Part shown: piece after piece, positions 6,287 to 21,567 of the stretch
Layout: each line of letters starts with the position of its first letter
Position numbering within the stretch: the first letter of the stretch is position 1
From: a virus
Reading direction: 5' to 3' (one strand)
IMG/VR virus record: IMGVR_UViG_3300028829_002476
Coordinates: 1-22,409 of that record
DNA: 22,409 nt
Made by a program: the position numbers and the translations under genes
Notes under the pieces: model-generated
Told to the model about the DNA's origin: nothing
What the model saw: the letters and a program-made list of their open reading frames with translations, nothing else
The model's database searches: none

Positions 6287-6333
6287 CATGTTTTTGCCGA
6301 TCAAAATAGCGCAGGCTCCCCAAACAGCATCAC

Positions 6334-6362
6334 ATGGCCCACTAAGCCATAGCCGCTTTTTT
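6334..6362 (+). terminator. Weak intrinsic terminator after the fibre genes
   Basis: A 5-bp stem (ATGGC at 6334-6338, GCCAT at 6346-6350) with a 7-base loop is followed, after six bases, by a run of six T (6357-6362). The stem is short and the T run is not directly adjacent, so efficiency is doubtful. Its position between the last fibre gene and the promoter of the next module supports the call. Confidence 0.35.
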
Positions 6363-6389
6363 GGCATTGCCTACAACATGTGGTAATAT
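6361..6389 (+). promoter_or_regulatory. Sigma70-like promoter for the tail/ejection module
   Basis: TTGGCA (6361-6366, 5 of 6 matches to the -35 consensus), a 17-base spacer and TAATAT (6384-6389, 4 of 6), preceded by TG at the extended -10 position (6381-6382). Predicted transcription start is near 6396, about 23 bases before the ATG at 6419. The -10 is only a fair match; the gap position and spacing are the stronger support. Confidence 0.48.
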
Positions 6390-6414
6390 TTTCGCGTCTG
6401 TAACAACATGTTGT
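6373..6414 (+). promoter_or_regulatory. Pair of 12-bp dyad sites, 30 bp apart (operator candidate)
   Basis: ACAACATGTGGT (6373-6384) and ACAACATGTTGT (6403-6414) differ at one base. The second is a perfect palindrome. Their starts are exactly 30 bp apart, close to three helical turns, so a dimer could bind both on one DNA face. The first overlaps the putative -10 region and the second covers the expected 5' leader just before the ATG at 6419. A related pair with the same spacing precedes the gene at 15778. The binding protein is unknown; the stand-alone winged-helix gene at 21083 is one candidate, purely by inference. Confidence 0.5.
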
Positions 6415-6418
6415 GCCT

Positions 6419-7900
6419 ATGGCTTTAATTGACATTAATATACCGCCTGGCGTCTATCGTAACGGGACAGATCTGCAGAGCGTAGGCCGTTGGCGCGACA
6501 CTAATCTGGTGCGCTGGGTTGACGGCACAATGCGGCCGCTCGGCGGGTGGCGCACTCGATCTGACACCGCTGCCGCCGCCAAAGTGCGCGGCATGATGGC
6601 ATGGGCGGACAATAGTACGGACCAACGCATTGCGATAGGCACATACAACAAATTATACGTGTATAATCTGCTGGGCGCTCAATCAGATATTACCCCGGCG
6701 GGTTTATCCGCAGGCCGCGAGGATGCGGCGGCGACAACCGGCTACGGCGGTGGTCTGTATGGACAAGAATTTTACGGCACACCCCGCCTAGAATCAACAC
6801 GAATTGAGCCGGCGACAAGCTGGGCGCTGCAGCCGTGGGGCGAATACCTCGTTGCGTGCAATCGTGATGACGGCAAGATTTACGAATGGCAGCTTAACGC
6901 AAGTGCAGTGGCCGCTGTGTTAAGCAACGCCCCAACTAACAATCAAAGTATTGTTGTGACTGAGGAACGCTTTTTATTGGCACTCGGCGCAGGCGGCAAC
7001 AGCCGCAAAGTGCAGTGGTGTGACCGCGAGAATAATACAGTTTGGTCGCCAAGCGCGACAAACGAGGCGGGCGATTTAACGCTGCAGACCACCGGCAAAA
7101 TTATGGCCGGCGTTCGCGCGCAGGGCCAGACGTTAATCCTTACAAGCACAGATGCCCATAGTGCAACATATTTGGGGCCGCCTTACGTTTTTGGCATAGA
7201 CCAGGTTGGCACGAGCTGCGGTCTGGCCGCGCATTTGGCTTATGCCAGCGTTGATGCTGGCGTGTTCTGGATGGGGTTAAATTCGTTTTACGCATTCACT
7301 GGGAATAACGTGCAAGAGCTGCCCTGCGACGTGGCGGATTATGTGTTTAGCGATATTAACCGCGCACAAATCAGCAAGACATTTGCCATGCCGCTGCAGG
7401 GGTTTGGCGAAATATTTTGGTTTTACCCGTCAGCGTCTAGCACCGAAAATGATAGATATGTTGTCTATAATTACGTTGAGAATACTTGGTATATTGGCCA
7501 GATCGCCCGGACTGCCGGGGCTGACGCCGGCGCATTTGCGCTGCCAATGATGTGCGACCCGGCAGATAAAAAAATATACGAGCATGAGATAAGTTTTGCG
7601 TACAGCGGACTGACGCCGTTTGCCGAAACTGGCCCGATTATGCTGGGGTCCGGCGAGAACGTCGCCAGCGTTACCGAAATGCTGCCCGACGAGAAAACGC
7701 AAGGCGACGTCACGGCCACGTTTAAAACGCGCTTCGCGCCGAATGGTACAGAGCGCTCGTATGGCCCCTACAGTATGAGCAACCCGACAAGCCTGCGGTT
7801 TACTGGCCGTCAAATGCGGATGCGCCTGACCGGCGCGCGTCTGGCTGATTGGCGCGTTGGCATCAACCGGCTGGACGTTGTTGCTGGGGGTCGCCGTTAA
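6419..7900 (+). CDS. Tail nozzle/hub protein, P22 gp10-like (T7 gp12 analogue)
   Basis: 493 residues from ATG 6419. A GTG two codons upstream (6413) is also in frame, and neither start has a clear Shine-Dalgarno. The N-terminus, with NGTDLQSVGRWRDTNLVRW and a G(T)MRPLGGW turn, is typical of short-tailed phage structural proteins. The chain then shows propeller-like strands (RIAIGTYNKLYVYNL, YLVACNRDDGKIYEWQL, FLLALGAGGNSRKVQW). The middle (QTLILTSTDAHSATYLG ... FWMGLNSFYAFTG) and the end (LRFTGRQMRMRLTGA..ADWRVGI) resemble the layout of the P22 tail hub gp10 (472 aa). That protein forms the nozzle below the portal/adaptor and docks the fibres. Being first in the tail/ejection module fits. The P22/T7 parallel comes from recall of layout, not from an alignment. 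Confidence 0.62.
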   Translation: MALIDINIPPGVYRNGTDLQSVGRWRDTNLVRWVDGTMRPLGGWRTRSDTAAAAKVRGMMAWADNSTDQRIAIGTYNKLYVYNLLGAQSDITPAGLSAGREDAAATTGYGGGLYGQEFYGTPRLESTRIEPATSWALQPWGEYLVACNRDDGKIYEWQLNASAVAAVLSNAPTNNQSIVVTEERFLLALGAGGNSRKVQWCDRENNTVWSPSATNEAGDLTLQTTGKIMAGVRAQGQTLILTSTDAHSATYLGPPYVFGIDQVGTSCGLAAHLAYASVDAGVFWMGLNSFYAFTGNNVQELPCDVADYVFSDINRAQISKTFAMPLQGFGEIFWFYPSASSTENDRYVVYNYVENTWYIGQIARTAGADAGAFALPMMCDPADKKIYEHEISFAYSGLTPFAETGPIMLGSGENVASVTEMLPDEKTQGDVTATFKTRFAPNGTERSYGPYSMSNPTSLRFTGRQMRMRLTGARLADWRVGINRLDVVAGGRR

Positions 7901-15691: not shown

Positions 15692-15693
15692 AT

Positions 15694-15735
15694 CAACATA
15701 TAGTGTTCAGCGTCTAATTTTTACTACATATAGTA
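15694..15735 (+). promoter_or_regulatory. Second pair of dyad-like sites, 30 bp apart
   Basis: TCAACATATAGT (15693-15704) and ACTACATATAGT (15723-15734) agree at 10 of 12 bases and start exactly 30 bp apart, the same spacing as the pair before the 6419 gene. In the second copy TACTA and TAGTA form inverted arms around CATA. Consensus over all four copies is roughly CwACATrTnGT. Each copy also contains TATAGT, a near -10 element, so this pair could be promoter elements instead of operators. Confidence 0.42.
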
Positions 15736-15748
15736 TTTCTGTTAAAAT
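15720..15748 (+). promoter_or_regulatory. Possible extended -10 promoter for the capsid module
   Basis: TTTACT (15720-15725, 4 of 6 matches to the -35 consensus), a 17-base spacer and TAAAAT (15743-15748) with TG at the extended position (15740-15741). It would start transcription near 15755, within the hairpin before the 15778 gene. Moderate to weak; the two upstream TATAGT copies are alternative -10 elements. Confidence 0.35.
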
Positions 15749-15774
15749 CCCGGCGAAGCGATTTGCCGGGATTT
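15745..15774 (+). terminator. Perfect 10-bp hairpin: terminator and/or ribosome-site cover
   Basis: AAATCCCGGC (15745-15754) pairs perfectly with GCCGGGATTT (15765-15774) around a 10-base loop. The 3' arm contains GGGA, the best ribosome site for the ATG at 15778, six bases away. The hairpin could end portal transcripts (a short ATTT follows the GC core) and, in read-through messages, hide the ribosome site. Transcripts starting inside it (near 15755) would escape folding. Which role is real is inference. Confidence 0.55.
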
Positions 15775-15777
15775 CCT

Positions 15778-16020
15778 ATGTCAACCGACGTCAAAATTAA
15801 AGCGGAAGATGCTAAACGTCTGAAATTAGACACAGCTTTCCTCCAATTTATGAACGACGTGCGCGACGCACAAATCCAGACATTCCGCTCCAGCACTGCC
15901 GAGCAAATCGAGCAGCGCGAAAACGCGCACGCAATCCTGCGAGCGCTGGATCTGGTTGAGGCGCAACTCGACGCGGCGATTGTCGCAGAGACGCTGAAAA
16001 GCCGCAGAAAAAACAGGTAA
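15778..16020 (+). CDS. Small helical protein between portal and scaffold
   Basis: 80 residues from ATG 15778, with GGGA 6 bases upstream inside a hairpin. An in-frame TTG at 15763 would start inside the hairpin and is less likely. The sequence is almost all helix and strongly charged: KIKAEDAKRLKLDTAFLQFM, then IQTFRSSTAEQIEQRENAHA, with a second helix LRALDLVEAQLDAAIVAETL and a basic tail KSRRKNR. No Cys and no membrane segment. Small genes in this place in other podoviruses are often of unknown function; a capsid-assembly or scaffold helper role is plausible. Family not recognised. Confidence 0.66.
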   Translation: MSTDVKIKAEDAKRLKLDTAFLQFMNDVRDAQIQTFRSSTAEQIEQRENAHAILRALDLVEAQLDAAIVAETLKSRRKNR

Positions 16021-16026
16021 GCACCG

Positions 16027-17007
16027 ATGCAATCGACTGACCTTGATGCTCTTGCCGAGCAACTCATACAAGAGCCAGACATAACGTCTGAAGAAGACAA
16101 TCCGAGCGAAGCCGTAGAGGCTCAATCAGAGGCAACTGATGAAGATCAGACCGAGATTGAGACTGACATAGCCGAGGGCGAGGATGAGCCTGTCGAGGCG
16201 TCCAGCGACGAGGTCGATGACGATGACCTGGATGACGAAGAAATTGATGATTACGAGCCGGTAGATGCTGAGGAAACCACAAAGCTACACCCCGTCAAAG
16301 TAGACGGCAAAGATGAGCAGTGGACACTGGATCAGTTAAAACAATCTGCAGCAGGCCAGGGTTACATCAACCGCAGAATGCAGGAAATTGCGCACGCTGA
16401 AAAACAGTACAACGAGCAATTCCAAGCACTGCAACAAGAGCGACAGCAAGCTCTTGAGGCGTTTAAACAGATACAAAACGGACTTGCACCACCCGCGCCA
16501 CCTCGAATTGACTTTGAGGCAGACCCCATTGGGGCGATGCACGAAGAGCGAGAGTATAACAAGGCAAAGGCAGAATATGACGAGAAACTGCAGCAAGTGC
16601 AGCACCTTCAGCGTCAACAATCTGAGCAGCAAGATGTACAAAGCCAGCAATACATAGCAGCGCAGGTTGAAATCCTGCGTGAAAGATTGCCGGAATTGAT
16701 TGGCCCCGACTCTGAGGCCAAGCGCGCAGCATTAGTCCAAGCTGGCGTCGATTATTACGGGTTCGCCCCGGAAGAAGTCGCCGCCGTTAAGGACGCTCGG
16801 CACGTTCAAGTTTTGAACGATGCCAAAAAATGGCGCGAGCTGCAAACCCGTAAAAAAGAACGCAAGGCCAAGGCTAACGCCGTGCCGCCCGTTCGCGCTG
16901 GCGCAAAACGCCGCCCAGAAACTGCTGAAAATTCCGCACGCAAAAAAGCGCGAGAGCGCTTTGCAAAATCTGGCCGCATTGAAGATGCGGTGAATTTGTT
17001 ACTCTAA
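16027..17007 (+). CDS. Capsid scaffolding protein
   Basis: 326 residues, starting six bases after the previous stop, with AGG about 9 bases upstream. Layout is typical of a podovirus scaffold: residues 1-90 very acidic (runs such as DEVDDDDLDDEEIDDYEP), then VDGKDEQWTLDQLKQ, a Gln-rich coiled-coil from about 115-215 (EKQYNEQFQALQQERQQALE, EKLQQVQHLQRQQSEQQD), and a basic C-terminus (KKERKAKANA, ARKKARERFAKSGR) with helix EDAVNLLL at the end. In P22 and relatives the basic C-terminal helix binds the coat protein and the scaffold leaves or is lost on maturation. The capsid gene follows after 12 bases. Sequence is too divergent to name a closer family. Confidence 0.8.
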   Translation: MQSTDLDALAEQLIQEPDITSEEDNPSEAVEAQSEATDEDQTEIETDIAEGEDEPVEASSDEVDDDDLDDEEIDDYEPVDAEETTKLHPVKVDGKDEQWTLDQLKQSAAGQGYINRRMQEIAHAEKQYNEQFQALQQERQQALEAFKQIQNGLAPPAPPRIDFEADPIGAMHEEREYNKAKAEYDEKLQQVQHLQRQQSEQQDVQSQQYIAAQVEILRERLPELIGPDSEAKRAALVQAGVDYYGFAPEEVAAVKDARHVQVLNDAKKWRELQTRKKERKAKANAVPPVRAGAKRRPETAENSARKKARERFAKSGRIEDAVNLLL

Positions 17008-17019
17008 AGGAACAACGAT

Positions 17020-17979
17020 ATGGCACAACCGGCCAACACCTTTGACAGCTATGATTCTGTCAACTCCATCCGTGAAGACATCATGGACGATGTGGTGATG
17101 ATTTCACCAGAAGATACGCCTTTTTACAGCGCTACGAAAAAAGTCACTGCCAGCAATACAAACGTTGAGCATATGACTGATACACTTCGCTCATCTGGTG
17201 CAAATGCTCATGTTGAAGGCGATGCAACCGCCGGATCAGCGCGTGTTGCAAGCGTAAGACTGTCCAATCAAACACAGATTTTCAAAGATTCGGTTGTCGT
17301 TCCAGACACCGATATTGGTCTGGACCGGGTCGGCAAGCGCAAGCAACTGGCGCTACAAACGCTAAAAATAGCGGCCGAGCAAAAGCTTGACATAGAACTT
17401 TCGTTATTTGCAAACAACGCCAAGGTTGCGGGAAACGCCACAACAGCGCGCGAGCTTGCCGGCATACCAGCTTGGTTGAAAACCAACGTCAATTTTCAAA
17501 GCGGAAATAGCGGCGCAAACCCAACCGGCGACGGCACGGATGCGCGGACTGACGATGGTACGCCAACAGCGTTTAGCCAAGCTAAATTTGACGCTGTAAT
17601 GCAGTCTATGTGGGAAGAGGGCGGCAAGCCTAACACCTGCTATTTGTCTGCATTTCAGATGAACAAAGCGCTGGCGTTCACTGGCAATAACAACCAGCGC
17701 GCCAACGTAACTGGCGCAGATGAGCGTGTTATCAATTCATTAGCGATTTATCTGACTCCTTGGGGACAGGTCAAATTTCAACCCTCACGGGAGAATCGCT
17801 CGCGTGACGTGTTCATCATGCAGGACGATATGTGGAACGTTGCTGTGCTGCGTCCAACCAAGTCAACCGCGTTGGCGAAAACCGGCGATAACACACAACG
17901 CCAAGTTGTGACGGAATTGACGCTAATCTGTAAAAATGAAAAAGCGTCTGGTGCAATTTACGACAACACCACAAGCTAA
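17020..17979 (+). CDS. Major capsid protein, SU10-like (DUF5309 type)
   Basis: 319 residues. AAGGA lies 8 bases before the ATG. The order of motifs matches the SU10-like HK97-fold capsid family: a DIMDDVVMISPEDTPFYSA start, TNVEHMTDTLRSSGANAHVEG, VRLSNQTQIFKDSVVV, then a long helix (RKQLALQTLKIAAEQKLDIE). The A-domain follows, with FSQAKFDAVMQSMWEEGG, and then LAIYLTPWGQVKFQPSRENR, and the P-domain strand TELTLICKNEKASGAIYD closes the chain. The usual 'TPF.S' and 'N..VEG' landmarks are present. The protein builds the icosahedral shell from hexamers and pentamers. A G+C-rich hairpin follows the stop. No obvious protease or delta domain is encoded, so shaping relies on the separate scaffold. 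Confidence 0.88.
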   Translation: MAQPANTFDSYDSVNSIREDIMDDVVMISPEDTPFYSATKKVTASNTNVEHMTDTLRSSGANAHVEGDATAGSARVASVRLSNQTQIFKDSVVVPDTDIGLDRVGKRKQLALQTLKIAAEQKLDIELSLFANNAKVAGNATTARELAGIPAWLKTNVNFQSGNSGANPTGDGTDARTDDGTPTAFSQAKFDAVMQSMWEEGGKPNTCYLSAFQMNKALAFTGNNNQRANVTGADERVINSLAIYLTPWGQVKFQPSRENRSRDVFIMQDDMWNVAVLRPTKSTALAKTGDNTQRQVVTELTLICKNEKASGAIYDNTTS

Positions 17980-21082: not shown

Positions 21083-21331
21083 CTACGGGGCAACCCGCCA
21101 GTACGTGACGTTCAGTTCCCAATCTTCAACCAGCCAGCCTTTGCGGATTAACGATTGCAAAACCTTATGTGACGAGCTGACCGACTTGCGTTGCTTCATC
21201 ATTTGCTCGCCGTCAATTTTACCTAAGCAAATTTCACGCAATGATGGGCACCGGCCAAGCTCTTGCCAATGGTCCCGCACAAAGCAGAACATCTCGTGCT
21301 GAGTGCGGGTCAGTGGGCTGCGCTCTTTCAA
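21083..21331 (-). CDS. Stand-alone LexA-type winged-helix protein
   Basis: 82 residues. The likely start is TTG at 21331, which overlaps the stop of the upstream gene (TTGA) with AGGG 7 bases before it. A longer frame from 21442 would be antisense-free but overlaps the upstream gene by more than 100 bases. Residues 7-34 (LTRTQHEMFCFVRDHWQELG, then RCPSLREI) match the first helices of the LexA DNA-binding domain, and SSSHKVLQSLIRKGWLVE fits its recognition and wing region. The LexA serine-protease half is absent, so it is not a self-cleaving repressor. It probably binds DNA as a small regulator. Leftward operon, ending at the terminator at 21051-21076. Confidence 0.66.
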   Translation of the reverse strand: MKERSPLTRTQHEMFCFVRDHWQELGRCPSLREICLGKIDGEQMMKQRKSVSSSHKVLQSLIRKGWLVEDWELNVTYWRVAP

Positions 21332-21567
21332 TGCACTGCCCTTTCGATGTGTAAATCCTCGCCAACGAGCTTGTACGTAACGCCGCCAGTTTGCATTTCG
21401 GTAATGCCGATGGTTCGCATCCCCTCGGCAAGCAAATCGCACAGCTCTTCGCGAGTGCTAAACCAGCGCTCGCATTGCTGCATTGCCTCGGTGATGTTTT
21501 CTGCGACATCATCCAGCTTGTTTTTGATTTCGGCGTCGGTCGGAAAATCAATCACATTATCGCTCAT
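21328..21567 (-). CDS. Small acidic helical protein, unknown
   Basis: 79 residues from ATG 21567 (MSDNVIDFPTDAEIKNKL). An in-frame start at 21636 exists but would overlap the upstream gene; the ATGA overlap at 21564-21567 and AAGGGG about 10 bases before the ATG support the shorter form. The first 45 residues are acidic helix (DDVAENITEAMQQCERWFST), followed by LCDLLAEGMRTIGITEMQTG and a short strand pair (GVTYKLVGEDLHIERAV). The overall size and charge suggest an adaptor or inhibitor protein. It overlaps the downstream winged-helix gene by four bases, so the two are probably made together. No family recognised. Confidence 0.62.
   Translation of the reverse strand: MSDNVIDFPTDAEIKNKLDDVAENITEAMQQCERWFSTREELCDLLAEGMRTIGITEMQTGGVTYKLVGEDLHIERAVH

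Follow-up and report, generated by a model that had tools for sequence, protein, structure and literature searches.

Two late modules of a virus genome fragment are each preceded by a pair of short dyads, and the question raised by this locus is which regulator such pairs would serve when the genes behind them build the virion. The fragment is a 22.4-kb IMG/VR virus record, and the whole of it is referred to as the window. An earlier note had described 12-bp dyads of similar core, paired at 30 bp, in the gaps before the two modules; this was confirmed and both pairs were located, along with the features below.

Dyad pairs at the nozzle and capsid modules

6361..6389, + strand: predicted sigma-70 promoter of the nozzle module, TTGGCA-17-TAATAT
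6373..6384, + strand: NrdR-type box 1 of the nozzle promoter, ACAACATGTGGT (extended 16-bp box 6371-6386)
6403..6414, + strand: NrdR-type box 2 of the nozzle promoter, ACAACATGTTGT, perfectly palindromic and 30 bp from box 1
6419..7900, + strand: nozzle or virion structural gene (phrog_3287), following the first pair
15693..15704, + strand: NrdR-type box 1 of the capsid-module promoter, TCAACATATAGT
15720..15748, + strand: predicted sigma-70 promoter of the capsid module, TTTACT-17-TAAAAT
15723..15734, + strand: NrdR-type box 2 of the capsid-module promoter, ACTACATATAGT
15745..15774, + strand: strong hairpin where the capsid transcript is predicted to start (dG -22.4 kcal/mol, z -4.55)
15778..17979, + strand: capsid module following the second pair, comprising an 80-aa protein, the scaffold (phrog_3927) and the major capsid protein (phrog_1328)

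The start-to-start distance was 30 bp in both pairs (ACAACATGTGGT/ACAACATGTTGT and TCAACATATAGT/ACTACATATAGT), which equals a 14-bp spacer between 16-bp boxes. The pairs were located in non-coding gaps between predicted genes (6287-6418 and 15692-15777), the former gap assuming that the nozzle gene starts at the ATG at 6419, and the second nozzle dyad ended five bases 5' of this codon. Box 1 of the nozzle pair occupied the end of the predicted promoter spacer and abutted the -10 element, and box 2 of the capsid pair overlapped the predicted -35 element and spacer. The window also encoded a portal (phrog_1216). A hairpin of different sequence was seen by eye at the position of the capsid hairpin in one relative (G002).

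A search of the whole window found the nozzle and capsid dyad pairs and no others, and a control with the pattern reversed gave 0 pairs. Scored with a matrix of bacterial NrdR-type sites, the window pairs reached 29.6 and 30.7, and the best pair in 20 windows shuffled by a Markov model scored 10.2 on average and 20.3 at most with the same matrix. Since only 4 of the 289 alphaproteobacterial genomes scanned had the exact pair pattern (spacer 18-20), two pairs in 22 kb are not a matter of chance, an origin ruled out by the shuffles, this base rate and the controls with reversed motif and 25-bp spacing.

Likeness to bacterial NrdR boxes

Nearly all bacteria have NrdR, a repressor that responds to how much DNA precursor is available. 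It binds two 16-bp palindromes, in each of which a C and a G must stand nine bases apart (PMC9110341), and the box pairs bound are separated by 14-17 bp (PMC12051234). Binding and repression occur with ATP plus dATP while ATP alone gives no binding (PMC9110341, PMC12176259). The boxes at RNR genes overlap promoters (PMC9110341), and those of E. coli are 15 bp apart with a central AT and overlap the RNA polymerase site (PMC12176259).

The window pairs fitted two palindromic boxes with the core aCwAyATrTwGt, as judged by matrix score, a core shared with E. coli. The same 12-bp core was found in pairs 31 bp apart upstream of nrdA, nrdH and nrdD of E. coli K-12. The C and G stood nine bases apart in all four window boxes, as NrdR boxes need (PMC9110341), the 14-bp spacer falls inside the 14-17 bp range (PMC12051234), and both pairs lay over predicted promoters, corresponding to the overlap with the RNA polymerase site. 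The window sites therefore resemble the boxes of E. coli nrdAB, nrdHIEF and nrdDG and of Streptomyces nrdRJ in core, two-fold symmetry, C/G distance, AT centre, three-turn spacing and promoter overlap (PMC9110341, PMC12176259, PMC12051234), and differ in their start-to-start spacing of 30 bp as against 31 bp in the bacterial boxes. Two further features count against the NrdR reading, as the RNR boxes listed had the CATG centre seen in window boxes less often than ATAT, and the position of the box relative to the promoter differed between the nozzle and capsid promoters.

Bacterial genomes were scanned with the motif pair independently, giving at least 118 stretches. An RNR gene was detected, with E. 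coli queries alone, in 66 of 118 stretches among the matches listed, mostly right beside the pair and usually downstream of it, and some of the remaining stretches adjoined class II RNR, NRDD or NrdR genes. The exact pattern occurred once in the 4.8 Mb of Roseibium, near a class II RNR gene. In one alphaproteobacterial stretch (L535) an ORF for a 1193-aa class II RNR was preceded by the two 12-mers of the capsid pair, TCAACATATAGT as box 1 and the reverse complement of ACTACATATAGT as box 2, standing 33 bp apart, and ACAACATGTTGT was located upstream of another alphaproteobacterial class II RNR ORF (L541). The strict search pattern is often not matched exactly by the RNR boxes of alphaproteobacteria.

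NrdR has been described as RNR-specific with topA of P. aeruginosa as a known exception (PMC4409342). No RNR was found among the window genes tested, and the genes downstream of the pairs were the nozzle gene and the capsid module, which is not the classical placement in the RNR regulon. Because of these downstream genes the sites were classed as NrdR-type operators and not as members of the RNR regulon. Bacterial NrdR boxes control nucleotide synthesis whereas the window pairs precede virion modules and those of its relatives also packaging genes.

Conservation in related phages

The nearest cultured phage by capsid protein was Octadecabacter Antarctic DB virus 2 (OctaDB2, 61% identical), so an alphaproteobacterial host is probable. 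A DNA-level search of cultured phages with the window gave no match, and a search of genome contigs with the major capsid protein found no relative and hence no prophage host. Among alphaproteobacteria at large, 33 of the 41 sampled had an NrdR.

Both pairs were fully conserved in close relatives. Across nine of these the block from the TTGGCA -35 element through both dyads to the nozzle ATG was nearly invariant, and the DNA just 5' of it was variable at most positions. Nozzle relatives at about 70% identity carried a promoter-like element in the same place and lacked the dyads. The capsid-gap pair was found in three relatives with portals about 70% identical (G002, L128 and L163), where the 12-mers had changed and the 30-bp spacing was kept.

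The earlier note had further suggested that more copies might be found in the rest of the genome, and further copies were found at other late-module boundaries of related phages. In G001 (33.9 kb) the large terminase gene was closely followed by a weaker pair and preceded, in the non-coding gap upstream of it, by a triple cluster of sites, and G002 (39.5 kb) had a pair before a 779-aa gene that follows the terminase region. Candidate NrdR-type sites, recognised by sequence, thus recur at late-module boundaries in the clade, including terminase and tail in two nearly whole relatives. No pair was found in DB virus 2 or in the more distant relatives G003 and G004. Recombinase or integrase genes were present in G001 (L113:10286-11603) and G002 (L115:9452-10510), which suggests that both are temperate phages.

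Similar pairs in other viruses

Scans of IMG/VR returned at least 119 stretches with pairs at 30 bp and at least 120 at 31 bp, and the completed control scans of viral contigs returned 11 with the reversed motif and 30 with 25-bp spacing, the latter mostly from one repeat family. A viral repeat family (L478-L506) featured long palindromes like TAGACTACACTATATATAGTGTAGTCTA beside a second NrdR-like dyad at 25 bp. With the simple ORF calling used in the viral and bacterial surveys the pairs were mostly intergenic, 22 of 244 being inside a called ORF and 41 of 207 unique viral pairs inside any long stop-free frame among the matches listed. Two NrdR-type pairs were located back to back at L177:7793-7896, between two divergently oriented ORFs (540 aa and 686 aa) that had no Pfam match.

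Among the matches listed an RNR gene was present in only 5 of 235 viral loci, and since no tested window gene was an RNR either, the sites differ from ordinary NrdR targets. Among 90 proteins neighbouring the listed viral pairs, the recurrent families were portal, large terminase, head-tail adaptor, HNH and primase, and RNR occurred once. Unrelated portal types and a large terminase adjoined such pairs, and portal or terminase genes were often downstream. A high-scoring pair was absent from the stretches read of MT835537, MT836094, Dulem virus 39, Eggerthella phage EL753P1 and Enterococcus phage phiFL1A, all of them cultured or annotated and related to the NrdR-linked portal phages.

The spacer between the boxes contained TTGAC in 24 of 161 unique viral cases among the matches listed, compared with 4.0 expected and a shuffled maximum of 10. 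A -10-like hexamer followed 16-18 bp after TTGAC in 13 of these 24 cases, so that the promoter spacer is taken up by one of the boxes, as at the nozzle promoter of the window. In nine loci (L164, L173, L174, L197, L205, L206, L214, L222 and L237) the spacer contained GCGAAAATACGTTCC or a close variant. Spacers of this type recall the Gram-positive LexA box and make joint control by SOS and NrdR possible.

Host NrdR as the candidate regulator

We consider each window pair to be an NrdR-type operator, two boxes separated by three helical turns and overlapping the sigma-70 promoter of a late operon, with host NrdR as the probable regulator (probability about 0.68). Direct support is given by the sites, their spacing and conservation, their placement over predicted promoters and the likeness of the motif to bacterial NrdR boxes. 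That host NrdR binds the sites, that binding represses and that repression is coupled to replication is what we infer. While dATP is plentiful, host NrdR loaded with ATP and dATP would occupy both boxes and bend the DNA, and RNA polymerase would be excluded and the late operons kept silent. Once dATP falls, most likely during replication of the phage genome, NrdR would leave, and the nozzle and capsid operons and, in relatives, the terminase and tail operons would switch on together.

The main rival is that replicating phage DNA acts as a decoy that titrates NrdR off the host RNR genes and so yields more dNTPs, effects on phage promoters being secondary. It draws on the same evidence for the identity of the boxes, and phages need dNTPs; a search of G001, G002, G006 and OctaDB2, which represent the clade and its neighbours, also gave no NrdR Zn-ribbon domain, a result by which an NrdR encoded by the phage was rejected. 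Decoy sites need not lie on core promoters, however, yet the window pairs overlap predicted promoters, the pairs of relatives stay at module boundaries, and two to four pairs per genome would make a small sponge; we regard titration as unlikely to be the main function.

The earlier note had offered two readings, a phage regulator binding as paired dimers or an unusual class of phage promoter. Its paired, phased candidate sites for two coupled dimers were upheld, but the phage origin of the regulator is probably wrong because motif and spacing match host NrdR boxes and many unrelated phages share the sites. The candidate for such a regulator, with the NrdR likeness due to convergence, would be the small product of 21083-21442 (- strand), which has a weak LexA-type DNA-binding domain of the winged-helix kind. 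Its homologues were found in the dyad carriers (the window, G001, G002 and L163) and not in the dyad-less OctaDB2, G003 and G004, but the genes neighbouring it have the same distribution in the clade. Only 1 of 235 viral loci among the matches listed held a relative of this product, itself a clade member, and the exact window 12-mers precede bacterial RNR genes, which makes a regulator of this kind quite improbable. The promoter-class reading is probably wrong as well, since the overlapped promoters look, by prediction, like ordinary sigma-70 promoters. The dyads are embedded in promoter-like sequence and could be part of a phage-specific promoter or other structural DNA feature that involves no repressor. 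The relatives at about 70% identity, though, have the promoter-like element in front of the nozzle gene but no dyads, by which a repressor-free promoter class is disfavoured, and promoter activity requires no second dyad at a distance of three turns; this reading we judge very improbable.

In the late promoters governed by Ogr of phage P2 and delta of P4 one short dyad type stands before several late operons. Ogr and delta are activators of phage origin whose upstream sites have a fixed position, and unlike these the window sites overlap promoters, as repressor sites do. A parallel for the use of a host protein is Bacillus phage GIL01, whose lysogenic promoter is repressed by host LexA (PMC4551915). 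As there, a host stress or metabolite repressor would here act as the phage switch. LexA senses DNA damage while the NrdR proposed here would respond to the dATP/ATP pool through sites on several late operons.

Nothing relevant on NrdR in phage infection was found in the open-access papers searched. In our estimation the chances are even that several unrelated phage lineages have independently placed NrdR-box pairs on portal, terminase and capsid promoters, so that late expression is gated by the host dATP/ATP sensor and follows replication, and NrdR would then be a widespread switch exploited by phages and not a repressor of RNR only. If NrdR boxes do gate phage late operons, a nucleotide-pool sensor would join the phage developmental clock and offer a simple account of how late transcription is tied to DNA replication in some phages. 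The phage may thus time the building of its particles by the nucleotide sensor of its host.
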